Part shown: piece after piece, positions 30,307 to 35,014 of the stretch | Layout: the number at the start of each line of letters is the position of its first letter | How positions within the stretch are numbered: the first letter of the stretch is position 1 | Assembly (NCBI RefSeq): GCF_014635185.1 | Contig: NZ_BMCM01000001.1 | Span: forward strand, 868,001 to 932,000 | Direction: 5' to 3' | Source: Microbacterium murale | GTDB taxonomy: Bacteria; Actinomycetota; Actinomycetes; Actinomycetales; Microbacteriaceae | Length of the DNA: 64,000 nt | The notes under the pieces: generated by a model | Told to the model about the DNA's origin: nothing | Database searches by the model: none | Seen by the model: only the letters and a program-made list of their open reading frames with translations | Program-made: the position numbers and the translations under genes

Positions 30307-31377
30307 TCACGCGCGTCGCCGACGCACCCCGTCGGCCAGCGCGGTCAGAGCCTCTGCCGTGGCATCCCATCCCATGCAGGCATCCGTCACGCTCTGCCCG
30401 TAGACGAGTCGGGTGCGGCCGGCCGAGACATCCAGCTTCTGCGCACCCGCGACGAGGTTGCTCTCCAGCATCACACCGGCGATCGCGGCACCGTCCGTGG
30501 CGATCTGCTCGCCGATCTCCGCAGCGACGATCGCCTGGCGCACGTGGTCCTTGCCGCTGTTGCCGTGGCTCGCGTCGATGACCACTCGCGGCGCGAGCAT
30601 CGCCGCGTCCAGTCGGCGAGATGCCTCCGCGACGTGCGAGACACCGTAGTTCGGCCCATCGGCGCCGCCGCGCAGGATCACACCGGTGTCGGGGTTGCCC
30701 GTCGTCGCCACCAGACTCGCGCGACCATCCGCGCCGATGCCGAGGAACGCCTGCGGAGCGGATGCTGCGGCCGCAGCATCCAGCGCCACCTGAAGCCCGC
30801 CGTCCATGCCGTTCTTGAATCCGATCGGCATCGACAGACCGGATGCCAGTTGTCGGTGGATCTGGCTCTCCGTCGTGCGCGCGCCGATCGCGCCCCACGT
30901 GATGAGGTCGGCGGTGTACTGCGGACTGATCGGCTCGAGGAACTCCGTGGCGCACGGCATCCCGAGCGCGGTGACATCGCGCAGGAATCCGCGTGCAAGA
31001 CGCAACCCCTCCTCGATGTCGTGGCTGCCGTCGAGGTGCGGGTCGTTGATCAGGCCCTTCCAGCCGATCGTCGTGCGCGGCTTCTCAAAGTACGTGCGCA
31101 TCACGATCAGCAGGTCTTCCCGGTGCTTCTCCGCCTCGCGCACCAGCCGACCGGCGTACTCGAGCCCTGCGGCGGGGTCGTGGATCGAGCAGGGGCCGGC
31201 GACCACGAGCAGCCGGTCATCCTCCCCCGACATGATCGCGCGGACCTGGTCGCGCGTGCGGGAGACCAGCGAGGCGCGCTCCACCCCGACCGGCAGTTCG
31301 GCGGCGATGTCGCCGGGCGTGGGAAGAGTCGTGAACTGTGAGACGTGCAGATCGGCTGTCGCATCGAGAGTGTTCAT
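30307..31377 (-). CDS. aroG: 3-deoxy-7-phosphoheptulonate (DAHP) synthase, class I
   Basis: This 356-residue enzyme condenses phosphoenolpyruvate and erythrose 4-phosphate, the first step of the shikimate pathway to Phe, Tyr and Trp. It has the class I AroF/G/H signatures VVAGPCSIHDPAAGLEYAGR, RTYFEKPRTTIGWKGLINDP, FKNGMDGGLQVALDA and VIDASHGNSGKDHVRQ. The specific isozyme cannot be assigned, so aroG is used generically. A leader peptide rich in aromatic residues and an attenuator precede it, so expression is probably set by aromatic amino acid supply. Confidence 0.93.
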   Translation of the reverse strand: MNTLDATADLHVSQFTTLPTPGDIAAELPVGVERASLVSRTRDQVRAIMSGEDDRLLVVAGPCSIHDPAAGLEYAGRLVREAEKHREDLLIVMRTYFEKPRTTIGWKGLINDPHLDGSHDIEEGLRLARGFLRDVTALGMPCATEFLEPISPQYTADLITWGAIGARTTESQIHRQLASGLSMPIGFKNGMDGGLQVALDAAAAASAPQAFLGIGADGRASLVATTGNPDTGVILRGGADGPNYGVSHVAEASRRLDAAMLAPRVVIDASHGNSGKDHVRQAIVAAEIGEQIATDGAAIAGVMLESNLVAGAQKLDVSAGRTRLVYGQSVTDACMGWDATAEALTALADGVRRRRA

Positions 31378-31435
31378 GGGTCCTGTCCTGTGATCAGGCG
31401 GACCCCGGATGCAGAGCCCGCCGATGAAACGGCGA

Positions 31436-31458
31436 AAGCCAGAGCAATGCTCTGGCTT
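31436..31458 (-). terminator. attenuator terminator hairpin (segments 3:4)
   Basis: On the minus strand AAGCCAGAGCA and TGCTCTGGCTT form an 11-bp perfect stem with a minimal loop, followed by TCGCCGTTT. It lies between the leader peptide stop and the DAHP synthase start, in the position of a classical attenuator terminator. Confidence 0.85.
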
Positions 31459-31516
31459 GTCGGCTCTGAAGGTGTGTGGTGTGCGCTAGATCAGCGCCGG
31501 CCCCTCCAGAGCCGAC
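31459..31516 (-). promoter_or_regulatory. alternative RNA pairings of the aromatic attenuator (segments 1 and 2)
   Basis: GTCGGCTCTG inside the leader peptide (31516-31507, mRNA sense) pairs perfectly over 10 bp with CAGAGCCGAC (31468-31459). The second segment also contains CAGAGC, which can pair with GCTCTGG of the terminator 3' arm. A ribosome stalled at Tyr8 or Phe9 would cover segment 1 and free segment 2, favouring read-through. This is inference from the pairing. Confidence 0.7.
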
Positions 31517-31545
31517 TCGAAATACGCATACCAACGGGTTGTCAT
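31486..31545 (-). CDS. aromatic leader peptide (attenuation control of DAHP synthase)
   Basis: This 20-codon frame (19 residues plus stop) encodes MTTRWYAYFESALEGPALI. Five residues around positions 5-9 are Trp-Tyr-Ala-Tyr-Phe, so one peptide can sense all three aromatic amino acids. It lies 108 bases upstream of the DAHP synthase ATG, on the same strand, and its 3' half forms attenuator segment 1. There is no Shine-Dalgarno sequence; TAGTGT seven bases upstream fits a leaderless start. A comparable leader peptide before a DAHP synthase gene has been described in Corynebacterium glutamicum (aroR). Confidence 0.85.
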   Translation of the reverse strand: MTTRWYAYFESALEGPALI

Positions 31546-31552
31546 GCGAAAG

Positions 31553-31558
31553 ACACTA
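31553..31558 (-). promoter_or_regulatory. -10-like hexamer for the leader peptide transcript
   Basis: TAGTGT on the minus strand is seven bases upstream of the leader peptide ATG, placing the transcription start at or near that ATG. Confidence 0.55.
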
Positions 31559-31591
31559 CCCCATGCGCGACGCATCGGTTCCACCGAGACA

Positions 31592-31644
31592 GCAAGACCA
31601 CGCCGAGACGGCGGCGAATCGACGCGGTCTCGGCGTGGTCTTGC
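31592..31644 (-). terminator. long stem-loop after ectD (18-bp perfect arms)
   Basis: GCAAGACCACGCCGAGAC at 31592 pairs perfectly with GTCTCGGCGTGGTCTTGC at 31627 across a 17-nt loop. It begins 25 bases after the ectD stop and ends before the leader peptide promoter, so it probably ends the ectABCD transcript, though no T-run follows. Confidence 0.75.
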
Positions 31645-31668: not shown

Positions 31669-32565
31669 TCAGCCCAGCGGCGTGAAGTCGCGGTTCGCGA
31701 TGTGCGTCGGACGCGGGCTCTTCGCGGCGAACGGATCGACCAGCGCGTTCTCGACGCTGTTGAACACCATGAAGACGTTCGAGCGGGCGTACGGGGTGAT
31801 GTTGTTGCCAGAGCCGTGCATGATGTTCGAGTCGAACCACAGCGCGGAACCTGCGGCCCCGGTGAACTGGTCGATGCCGTACTCGTCGGCCATCGCCGTG
31901 ATGGCGGCGTGGCTCGGCACACCGGCCTCCTGCGCCTGCAGCGACTGCTCGTGGTTGTTGTCGGGTGTCTCGCCGACTGCCGGCACGAACGTGCGGTGCG
32001 AGCCGGGCATCACCATGAGTCCGCCGTTGAACGGATAATTGTCGGTCAACGCGATGGACAGGCTCACCGCCCGCGGGATGGGCATGCCGTCCTCCGCATG
32101 CCAGGTCTCGAAGTCGGAATGCCAATAGAAGCCGGTGCCCGTGAAGCTCGGCATGTAGTTGATCCGAGTCTGGTGCAGGTACACCTCCGAGCCGACGATC
32201 TGTCGCGCCCTATCGAGCACCTTCGGATCGCGGGCGAGGGCCTCGAGCACTGAACTCAGCTTCTCGACCTCGAAGACCGATCGCACGGTGCCCGTCGTGC
32301 GCTCCGTTATCAGGCGGTCGTCGCCCTGCAGCGCCGTGTCGGATGCGAGCCGGTCGAGTTCGTTCGAATACGACGCGACGTCATCGGGTGAGATGAAATC
32401 GTCGAGGATCGTGAAGCCGCGTCGCTCATGCGCCTGCAGTTCATCCTCGGAGAAGGGGCCATCTCCGGCTGTCCCCCACACTGCGGGCTGCGTTCGGGTG
32501 ATGAAGTCAGAGGGCTGCGAAAGCCGGGTCGGGAACAGGTCCTCTGCGGTGGTCGTGGTGGTCAT
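31669..32565 (-). CDS. ectD: ectoine 5-hydroxylase
   Basis: The 298-residue Fe(II)/2-oxoglutarate dioxygenase converts ectoine to 5-hydroxyectoine, a compatible solute. The family signature FYWHSDFETWHAEDGMP supplies two iron ligands (His and Asp), and DSNIMHGSGNN the third His. QTRINYMPSFTGTGFYWHSD and RTFVPAVGETPDNNHEQSL match EctD. It is the last gene of ectABCD, 58 bases after ectC. Confidence 0.95.
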   Translation of the reverse strand: MTTTTTAEDLFPTRLSQPSDFITRTQPAVWGTAGDGPFSEDELQAHERRGFTILDDFISPDDVASYSNELDRLASDTALQGDDRLITERTTGTVRSVFEVEKLSSVLEALARDPKVLDRARQIVGSEVYLHQTRINYMPSFTGTGFYWHSDFETWHAEDGMPIPRAVSLSIALTDNYPFNGGLMVMPGSHRTFVPAVGETPDNNHEQSLQAQEAGVPSHAAITAMADEYGIDQFTGAAGSALWFDSNIMHGSGNNITPYARSNVFMVFNSVENALVDPFAAKSPRPTHIANRDFTPLG

Positions 32566-32623
32566 GCGTCGTTCTCCTGTCTCTTGCGGATGCTCTCTCT
32601 TGCGGATGCTGTGATGATCCCGG

Positions 32624-33016
32624 TCACGCGGGTTCGGTGACCAGCGGGTACACGCCGTTCTCGTCGTGCACCTCGCGCCCTGTGACGGGCGGGTTGAACA
32701 CGCACACGACGCGCATCTCCGTGCGCGGACGCACCTCGTGCTTGTCGTGGTCGTTCAGCAGGTACAGCGAGCCGGGGGCGAGCTGGTGTGTCTCATTCGT
32801 GCCGAGATCGGTGATCTCGCCCTCGCCGGCCACGACGAACACGGCCTCGATGTGGTTCGCGTACCAGAACCGGCTCACAGTGCCCGCGTACAGTGTGGTC
32901 TCGTGTACCGAGAAGCCCACCTTCTCCTTCGCGAGCACGATGCGCTTGCTGCGCCAGTTCTCGGTCTTGATGTCGGCGTCGGTGTCGGTGATCTCATCGA
33001 GTGTGCGGACGATCAT
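32624..33016 (-). CDS. ectC: L-ectoine synthase
   Basis: This 130-residue cupin cyclises N-gamma-acetyl-diaminobutyrate to ectoine. It starts [20 protein letters not shown] and has [32 protein letters not shown] with the metal-binding cupin residues, then [23 protein letters not shown]. Its start overlaps the ectB stop by four bases. Confidence 0.97.
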
Positions 33017-34371
33017 GCGGGGGTGTGCTCCTTGCTCTGTGCGTTGTGGTGGTCGGCGATGTCGCCTTCGGCGCGATCGGCGTCGTGATCGATCGTGTGA
33101 TCGGCGGCGTGCGGGTCGGGCTCACCGAGCACGGCGCGCACCGACTCGTCGATGATCCGCAGTCCGCGCTCGAGCTCGACGTCGGTGATGGTCAGTGCGG
33201 GGAGAATCTTCATGACCTCGCCCTCTGGGCCCGAGGTCTCCATGAGCAGTCCGCGCTCGAAAGCGGCCCGGCACACGGCATCCGCCAGCTCGCCTGAGGG
33301 GAACTGCAGACCGCGCGCGAGACCGCGGCCCTTCGCGATGAGCTCGTGCTGCGGGTAGCGGGCGACGAAGGTGTTGAACCATCCCTCGACGCGTGCGCCC
33401 TTGGTGATGGTGGAGTCGCGCAGCTCGTCATCCGACCAGTAACGGCGCAGCGCCGCAGCGGCCGTCGCGAACGCCGGGCTGATGCCGCGGAACGTGCCGT
33501 TGTGCTCTCCCGGCTGCCAGACATCGAGCTCGGGCTTGATGAGCGTGAGCGCCATCGGGATACCGTAGCCGGAGATCGACTTCGACAGGCAGACGATGTC
33601 GGGAACGATGCCGGCCTCTTCGAAGCTGAAGAAGTCGCCGGTGCGCCCGCAGCCCATCTGGATGTCGTCGACGATCAGCAGGATCTCGTGCTGCTTGCAC
33701 AGGGCCGCGAGCTGTCGCAGCCATTCGGCGCGCGCCGCGTTGATGCCGCCCTCGCCCTGCACCGTCTCGACGATCACGGCGGCCGGGATGTTGAGCCCGC
33801 TGCCGGAGTCTTCGAGCAGCCGCTCGAAGTAGAAGAAGTCGGGGTAGTCGCCGTCGAAGTAGTCGTCGTACGGCATCGGCGTCGCGTGCACGAGCGGTAT
33901 GCCGGCTCCGCCGCGCTTGAGCGAGTTGCCGGTGACGGACAGCGCGCCGAGTGTCATGCCGTGGAAGGCGTTGGTGAAGTTCACCACGGATTCGCGGCCG
34001 GTCACCTTGCGGGCGAGCTTCAGTGCGGCTTCGACCGCGTTCGCGCCGCCGGGGCCGGGGAAGACGACCTTGTAGTCGAGGTCACGAGGCTTCAGGATGA
34101 CTTCGTCGAGTGCCTCGAGGAAGTCGCGCCTGGCCGATGTGAACATGTCGAGGGAGTGCACGATGCGGTCATCGGCGAGGTAGTCGAGGAGCACGCGCTT
34201 GAGCTCTGGGTTGTTGTGCCCGTAGTTCAGAGCGCCTGCACCGGTGAAGAAGTCGAGGTACTCCTTGCCGTCTTCGTCGTACATCAGGCTGCCGATCGCA
34301 CGGTCGAACACGACGGGCCATGCGCGCGAGTAGCTGCGGACTTCGGATTCCAGCTGAGTGAAGATATTCAT
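33013..34371 (-). CDS. ectB: diaminobutyrate--2-oxoglutarate aminotransferase
   Basis: The 452-residue PLP class III aminotransferase makes L-2,4-diaminobutyrate from aspartate semialdehyde. Visible are [39 protein letters not shown], and the PLP lysine in [16 protein letters not shown] His/Asp-rich C-terminal extension ([20 protein letters not shown]) of about 35 residues exceeds the usual length. AAGGAGG precedes the ATG. It lies 73 bases after ectA. Confidence 0.96.
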
Positions 34372-34444
34372 CGAGTGGTGGTTCTCCTCCTTGATTGATC
34401 ACGTGCGGGGAGCGCACGCCGCCCCGGGTGGGCGGAAGTGACGG

Positions 34445-35014
34445 CTACATCGACGGGCCGATCTCGTAGAGCCGTTCGGGTTCGTGATGCGCAGCATCCG
34501 ACGGGTGCGTCAGATGCGCGCTCTCGAAGAGGGGGGTGACGACCATCGGCGCGTCGTTCCAGCGACGCGCGAGGCTGCGGAACGTCTGCTGGGACGCGGC
34601 GTTGTCGTCGGTGATGGTGGTCTGCAGGATGCGGACGGGCGGACTCACGACGTCGTCGTGGAGCAGGTCGTCCAGCATCCGGCCAGCGAGGCCGAGCCCG
34701 CGGAATCGCTCGTCGACGGCGACCTGCCAGATGAACAGGCAGGAAGGGTCTGCCGGGCGGCGGTAGCCGATGACGAAACCGGCCGGCTCACCGCCCACGA
34801 GTGCGATCCGGCATGTCGAGGCGAAGTCGCGGGCGTAGAGCACGTACGCATACGAGGAGTTCAGATCGAGCGTCTGCGAATCGCGGGCGATGCGCCACAG
34901 CTCGATCCCCTCATCGACCAGAGGCGGTCGGATCAGGCTCGTCTCACCCGACCGCGCATCGGTATGCGAGGCCTGAACTGACGTGCTCGGCTCGAGAGAG
35001 CCGGGGGAAGTCAG
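34445..35014 (-). CDS. ectA: L-2,4-diaminobutyrate acetyltransferase, start codon anomalous
   Basis: This GNAT-fold enzyme acetylates diaminobutyrate, the middle step of ectoine synthesis. Conserved parts are IELWRIARDSQTLDLNSSYAY, the acetyl-CoA loop in WQVAVDERFRGLGLAGRML, and QTTITDDNAASQQTFRSLA. The homologous region extends well upstream of the first in-frame GTG (34843), but no ATG, GTG or TTG occurs between there and the upstream in-frame stop at 35021-35023. I give the CTG at 35014 as a provisional start (189 residues). It overlaps the stop of an 18-codon frame with a good ribosome site. A CT duplication frameshift is the main alternative. Confidence 0.75.
   Translation of the reverse strand: MTSPGSLEPSTSVQASHTDARSGETSLIRPPLVDEGIELWRIARDSQTLDLNSSYAYVLYARDFASTCRIALVGGEPAGFVIGYRRPADPSCLFIWQVAVDERFRGLGLAGRMLDDLLHDDVVSPPVRILQTTITDDNAASQQTFRSLARRWNDAPMVVTPLFESAHLTHPSDAAHHEPERLYEIGPSM

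Follow-up and report, generated by a model that had tools for sequence, protein, structure and literature searches.

The locus described here raises the question of how a class I DAHP synthase gene could be adjusted to the supply of tryptophan, tyrosine and phenylalanine, and which RNA structures would take part. The window, the whole stretch of DNA analysed, comprises 64,000 nt of Microbacterium murale (NZ_BMCM01000001.1, 868,001-932,000), and all coordinates of the element are window positions. In front of the gene lies a short open reading frame (ORF) with clustered aromatic codons, originally predicted to be the leaderless leader peptide of a four-segment attenuator. We conclude that the element probably controls the DAHP synthase gene by ribosome-mediated transcription attenuation, with hairpin T as its terminator, and that it very probably senses a shortage of aromatic amino acids. 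On checking the sequence, the leader ORF, the helix, the terminator hairpin and the -10 element, including the distance of TAGTGT from the start codon, were all found where the original prediction had placed them (Table 1).

Table 1. Parts of the leader element and its target gene in the window
Feature	Window position	Strand	Remarks
-10 promoter element TAGTGT	31553..31558	-	7 nt 5' of the leader ATG
Leader ORF MTTRWYAYFESALEGPALI	31486..31545	-	ATG 31545-31543, stop TAG 31488-31486; 19 amino acids
Control cluster W5 Y6 A7 Y8 F9 (TGG TAT GCG TAT TTC)	31519..31533	-	
Segment A, 5' strand of the A:C helix	31503..31516	-	inside the ORF
Segment C, 3' strand of the A:C helix	31459..31472	-	
Hairpin T, intrinsic-terminator-like	31436..31458	-	10 bp, loop ATT, tail TCGCCGTTTC
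Segment D/E5 GGCGGGCTCTG, copy of A 3' of T	31412..31422	-	possible partners: C or 31405-31397
E 3' arm GGGTCCGCC	31397..31405	-	31405-31400 doubles as 5' arm of hairpin F
DAHP synthase Shine-Dalgarno AGGACAGGA and F 3' arm GGACCC	31378..31389	-	
Class I (aroFGH-type) DAHP synthase gene	30307..31377	-	PF00793 281 bits, TIGR00034 455 bits

The leader stop lies 108 nt before the DAHP synthase ATG (31377). Positions 31516-31507 (GTCGGCTCTG) are perfectly complementary to 31468-31459 (CAGAGCCGAC), and the full A:C helix has 14 pairs including one G.U. The leader RNA is more stable than dinucleotide shuffles (z = -5.25; 0 of 200 equally stable) and its fold contains two adjoining helices, A:C and T. 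None of the nine matches listed in an Rfam scan (E up to 1) lay over 31378-31545. A promoter and terminator consensus scan of the window gave no site, and the tail of T is weak here. The genes 5' of the leader (31669-34843, minus strand) resemble, as we take it by eye, an ectoine cluster with hydroxylase, synthase, aminotransferase and acetyltransferase. A long inverted repeat at about 31586-31640 (GCAAGACCACGCCGAGAC...GTCTCGGCGTGGTCTTGC) separates the leader promoter from the upstream gene and is possibly the terminator of that gene. The same genome carries a class II DAHP synthase (G000:C5:229688-230983), upstream of which no leader peptide was visible by eye.

Concerning the distribution of the leader, DAHP synthase upstream regions were gathered from genome collections and near-duplicates were removed. 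An automatic filter selected short ORFs with three aromatic residues within six and TANNNT 4-10 nt before the start. In a first set, counted after exclusion of 12 partial or weak loci, 124 of 152 distinct upstream regions passed (among them L080, later removed as a false positive); none of the 152 reverse complements did, and mononucleotide shuffles averaged 0.3 of 152. A second set, mostly from the family of C. glutamicum, yielded 60 of 65. After removal of one of these and the addition, by eye, of seven others, 190 leaders entered the statistics. Two more were recognised upon recheck, which brings the class I DAHP synthase set to 192 leaders among 217 distinct upstream regions; the set is not a survey, since the loci were chosen as relatives of the query. 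The C. glutamicum locus is among the leader-bearing regions; further examples are leaders from Arthrobacter (MTNRWYAYFVSALEGPKTR), Isoptericola (VDTRWYWRFTPAPVGARRADA), Jiangella (VIAVRRYPYFAQAPGGAGRVMR) and Nonomuraea (MLISRFWRYVPAPDGAEGHMR). In this sample, the leader was absent from 16 upstream regions of a large family (f21, by our guess Streptosporangiaceae) and from three Rokubacteria MAG loci. The class I enzyme is itself patchy within Microbacterium, with a match in 29 of 119 genomes sampled, nine of them weak only.

A covariance model built from 48 diverse leader sequences recovered the window at E = 8e-19 and saw no second good site in that genome, where the next-best match reached E = 0.86 only. 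In a sample of the class, 28 of 148 genomes had sites; in a wider sample of the phylum, searched with stricter filters, three of 197 did, all of them in the class of the window.

The start of the leader is arranged in a uniform manner. TANNNT lies 6, 7 and 8 nt before the start codon in 36, 144 and 10 of the 190 leaders, the filter having allowed 4-10 nt, and Shine-Dalgarno runs of at least four occur at 4 of 190 leader starts versus 96 of 950 random positions. Both the spacing and the scarcity are consistent with a leaderless ORF, as had been proposed. The accompanying suggestion that this might be new does not hold: accessible parts of the literature already describe leaderless attenuator leaders for LeuL, TrpL and IlvL of S. 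lividans (PMC8079986) and for ilvB of C. diphtheriae (PMC5784534).

The control codons stay aromatic whereas the remaining peptide varies. Trp is present in 171 of the 190 class I leaders, and Trp, Tyr and Phe together in 165, so that the cluster for all three aromatics noticed in the window is common to most of the family. Tyr and Phe control codons end in U in 402 of 464 cases compared with 7 of 844 in DAHP synthase genes, these counts coming from sequences that are not phylogenetically independent. In the leaders TAT makes up 246 of 253 Tyr codons and TTT 156 of 211 Phe codons; in the DAHP synthase genes (leader-bearing loci among L001-L080) TAT accounts for 1 of 361 and TTT for 6 of 483. 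The inverted usage is limited to Tyr and Phe. It is not a matter of general AU-richness, since other NNY codons of the same stretch mostly end in C (C- to U-ending: Asn 50:8, Asp 16:7, His 6:1, Cys 6:1). Tyr and Phe probably have one tRNA each, which would read their U-ending codons by wobble. According to the accessible text of PMC1183508, which models trp and his attenuation, the sensitivity of an attenuator requires particular synonymous codons; the theory concerns isoacceptor tRNAs, and the extreme choice of U-ending control codons fits it. The distance to segment A is also kept: the last aromatic codon lies 8 or 11 nt from the A core in 167 of 185 leaders and the first one 20 or 17 nt in 168 of 185. 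The spacing after A is variable (A to stop 19-40 nt in 175 of 185, stop to C 9-24 nt in 179 of 181).

The leader is not confined to DAHP synthase genes. In family f21 the covariance model found 63 sites in 62 of 121 genomes; on inspection of every site, five lie before a class I DAHP synthase and 58 before a chorismate mutase gene. Nine of these 58 genes are stand-alone (L295, L297, L300, L320, L330, L334, L337, L340, L342), and 49 have an N-terminal DAHP synthase-like part. The fusions (L277-L283 and L289-L342 of f21) consist of a divergent DAHP synthase-like protein with a C-terminal chorismate mutase; the one scanned scored 48 bits for PF00793 and 29 bits for PF01817 and stayed below all NCBIfam cut-offs. 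Among leaders before chorismate mutase genes, 47 of 48 are without Trp. Trp is thus present in 1 of 48 here and in 171 of 190 before class I genes; the Fisher p of 5e-33 for this difference is uncorrected for kinship, and the sequences are not phylogenetically independent. Of the nine stand-alone genes, eight have a leader with Phe and Tyr and without Trp; in the class I leaders of f21, Trp occurs in three of five. Chorismate mutase leads to Phe and Tyr only, so that the control codons follow the branch which the enzyme supplies. The tails of the terminators before chorismate mutase genes are rich in U (6.48 U per 9 nt versus a background of 1.07; 46 leaders). The codon bias is weaker here, U-ending codons making up 71 of 116 (TTT 46, TTC 34, TAT 25, TAC 11).

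These observations bear on another reading of the locus, in which ORF and hairpin would just insulate or terminate transcription and sense no amino acid. Hairpin T does form in all states that we modelled (see below), as such an insulator would have it. However, the constancy of the aromatic codons within a changing peptide, the inverted use of Tyr and Phe codons and the loss of Trp before chorismate mutase genes all speak against this reading, which we regard as scarcely credible.

Two RNA structures accompany the leader throughout. Unconstrained RNAalifold on a MAFFT alignment of 48 diverse leaders gave A:C with 10 pairs and T with 8 pairs, and both-sided changes in 11 of the 18 pairs. For A:C and T together, 94.5% of cells are paired compared with 80.7% in shuffled alignments, and 127 cells are changed on both sides compared with 36.3; none of 500 shuffles was as high in either measure. 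The covariation score was 0.409, and no slid version exceeded 0.148. For A:C, T and E together, the 42 sequences of the Microbacterium type are 98.0% paired compared with 93.9%. Among 48 sequences of the Mycobacteriaceae type, six pairs of T covary, and A:C is fully paired and nearly invariant. The variable pair of A:C, in 160 leaders with both motifs, is C-G in 99, T-A in 51, C.A in 7 and T.G in 3. Over 177 class I leaders, in some of which T was mis-set, the tail after T averages 3.81 U per 9 nt and the downstream background 1.01. Duplex energy is a weak discriminator against shuffles in GC-rich sequence (A:C: median z -1.9, 88 of 190 below -2; C:D: median z -1.05, 37 of 190 below -2). Of the checks that had been proposed for the leader, conservation and covariation come out in its favour: the peptide is kept far beyond the genus, and compensatory changes are found. 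The leader belongs to a widespread, conserved family of actinobacterial attenuators, with members in many families of its class.

A further hairpin inside the ORF, A:B, showed no covariation in the 48 diverse leaders (84.4% paired; 66 of 500 shuffles reach its score). In the 48 Mycobacteriaceae-type sequences its covariation score exceeds that of all 500 shuffles, which its number of both-sided pairs does not, and A:B may be real in this group, judging from the alignment. In L135, L151, L153 and their relatives A:B is lengthened to about 16 pairs (GCGCTTTATC...GATAAAGCGC).

How the position of the ribosome would act on these structures was examined by folding with ribosome footprints as constraints, using 113 class I leaders with a U-rich tail. 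The mean probability of A:C was 0.66 without a ribosome, 0.96 with the ribosome stalled at the first aromatic codon, 0.34 with it stalled at the last one and 0 with the ORF covered to the stop. The mean probability of T was 0.976-0.979 in every state (0.946-0.948 in 44 other leaders), the minimum for a single sequence being near 0 in every state. As the probability of A:C shifts and that of T is constant, A:C reports the position of the ribosome and does not displace T; nor does any equilibrium pairing switch T, its probability being the same in every state. As a ribosome stalled at the last codon masks part of A, the first and the last control codons should act differently. A:C and the terminator had been predicted to exclude each other; in the models they coexist in every ribosome state.

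The constancy of T also bears on a classical four-segment attenuator, in which C, with A masked, would take the 3' arm of the terminator by way of CAGAGC. The complementarity exists: CAGAGC (31468-31463) can pair with GCTCTG of the terminator 3' arm in the window, and likewise in Microbacterium-type sequences. By inspection, the pairing is specific to sequences of the Microbacterium type. Against its use as a switch, T remains formed with A occluded, with a probability of 0.998 in all four ribosome states in the window, and sequences with CCGGAGCC as C and GGCAGAGAC or GGCAGTGACC as T do not keep the pairing (by inspection, uncounted). We consider this arrangement very unlikely. Moreover, a helix scan of six clade alignments revealed no upstream partner for the 5' arm of T above column-shuffle controls (five shuffles per clade), and neither the folding states nor the scan yielded an antiterminator pairing that excludes T. 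In the same scan, a helix between the control-codon region and the region of the T tail and D in Microbacterium-type sequences (window 31537-31418; CCGTTGGTAT with GTTTC..CGGCGG) scored 12.8, slightly over the best control at 12.0.

The segments 3' of T might allow a control of translation instead. C:D would block hairpin E, and hairpin F would hide the Shine-Dalgarno sequence of the DAHP synthase gene; formation of A:C would free D, so that E forms and the site opens. D is conserved in the Microbacterium-type group, E and F are kept there (97.4% and 94.8% of cells paired), and a comparable overlap of E and F is visible by eye in some Mycobacteriaceae-type sequences. Where the D motif is present, a C base A meets a D base T in 37 of 37 cases and a C base G meets a D base C in 26 of 28. 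With the ribosome at the first codon versus at the stop only, accessibility of the Shine-Dalgarno sequence leans weakly in this direction, by a mean of 0.025 (21 up, 8 down of 118). In the other two comparisons of states, however, accessibility stayed level (mean -0.005, with 11 of 118 rising and 14 or 15 falling), and the cascade of C:D, E and F was rejected at equilibrium, as accessibility did not change consistently. A:B, C:D and F taken together show little covariation, 137 of 500 shuffles reaching their sole both-sided pair and 1 of 500 its three cells. The D motif is found in 65 and absent in 95 of 160 testable leaders, and no D is evident in C. glutamicum. Translation attenuation of this kind is an unlikely account of the family. 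At one locus, L235, C and D make a local hairpin followed by seven U, and T is absent; a classical attenuator with A:C against C:D may exist there. C:D as the terminator of such loci, which we presume to be of a Nocardia type, was dropped, the other 20 of 21 aligned rows being without such a tail by eye.

For the transcription attenuator with T as terminator, which we prefer, the following course of events is proposed. Judging from the -10 spacing and the missing Shine-Dalgarno sequence, transcription would start at or near the leader ATG and the ribosome would load on the 5' end. It would then read the Trp/Tyr/Phe cluster, which is seen in the sequence about 8-20 nt before segment A. With ample charged tRNA, the ribosome would pass over A to the stop; since it runs over A, A cannot pair with C, and T, a conserved hairpin with a U-rich tail, would presumably stop RNA polymerase. 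Shortage of any of the three aromatics would stall the ribosome at the cluster. According to the folding, a stall at the first codon would leave A free and favour A:C abutting T, and one at the last codon would cover part of A. By analogy with AroR, the stalled state would let the polymerase through T into the DAHP synthase gene.

In these models, base pairing does not explain how the stalled ribosome would disable T. One may speculate that a contact between ribosome and polymerase by way of the flush A:C helix fits the geometry. Such an attenuator would be free of an antiterminator: the stall-dependent A:C helix, flush with T, would put the stalled ribosome beside the RNA exit of the polymerase, the contact would suppress termination without competing pairs, and one codon-tuned cassette would serve both DAHP synthase and chorismate mutase, two unrelated enzymes of aromatic synthesis, across the actinobacteria. 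We put this forward as a tentative and rather doubtful proposal.

The closest known system is AroR of C. glutamicum, which the original prediction had already named as a relative. A primer used for aroR deletion (PMC7356990) served to find the locus; among 242 genomes of one genus, two contain an exact match, and these we took as C. glutamicum and a close relative. At L253, one of the two matched loci, the leader MFAARFYFMSGSGASPRQLAISCAT is followed by A, C and T, the last with a U6 tail. AroR therefore belongs to the family described here, as the locus found by the primer has the order leader, A, C, T. Like the window, it has a leader ORF before a class I DAHP synthase gene, an aromatic cluster right before A, C after the stop and T flush behind C. 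Unlike the window, with W-Y-A-Y-F, and unlike the 165 leaders with all three aromatics, its leader has Phe-Tyr-Phe, no Trp and no evident D; this FYF is kept in L213, L214 and L216 of the same genus group. The attenuator aroR-aroF goes back to Neshat et al. 2014, as cited in the accessible text of PMC11802643, PMC4046766 and PMC6892785. There, C. glutamicum aroF is described as controlled by Phe via the leader with Phe-Tyr-Phe (PMC11802643, PMC4046766), and a response of AroR to Phe limitation is reported (PMC11802643). Tyr availability is reportedly without effect on this operon (PMC11802643), which counts against a model of three-aromatic sensing.

Wider comparisons place the family among amino acid leaders in general. 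The attenuators of E. coli trp and pheA share with it leader codons for the end product, a helix in and after the ORF and a terminator before the gene; in contrast to them, the analysis revealed no conserved antiterminator incompatible with the terminator, and the first helix can form together with the terminator. Other actinobacterial leaders (LeuL, TrpL, IlvL and those of the survey below) are likewise short, often leaderless ORFs before a biosynthetic gene in a GC-rich host, and they differ in their amino acids and RNAs. In its accessible portion, the 2005 survey of actinobacteria (PMC1262725) lists trp, ilvB, cys and leu leaders and reports no conserved structures upstream of other amino acid pathway genes.

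In the literature searched, an attenuator of this kind is described for C. glutamicum only; subscription papers were mostly outside the search, so that absence from print is not established. Within this scope, the breadth of the family, the three aromatics as its norm, the inverted control codons, the extension to chorismate mutase and the lack of an antiterminator are apparently new, to us at least. Of the two novelties suggested originally, the three aromatics thus seem to stand, and the leaderless start was already described in the sources available to us. Here a conserved helix follows the state of the ribosome without excluding the terminator, so that the link between stall and terminator is directly testable. 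The one leader described in C. glutamicum expands into a wide family whose control codons can be read like a code: DAHP synthase goes with Trp, Tyr and Phe, chorismate mutase with Phe and Tyr.
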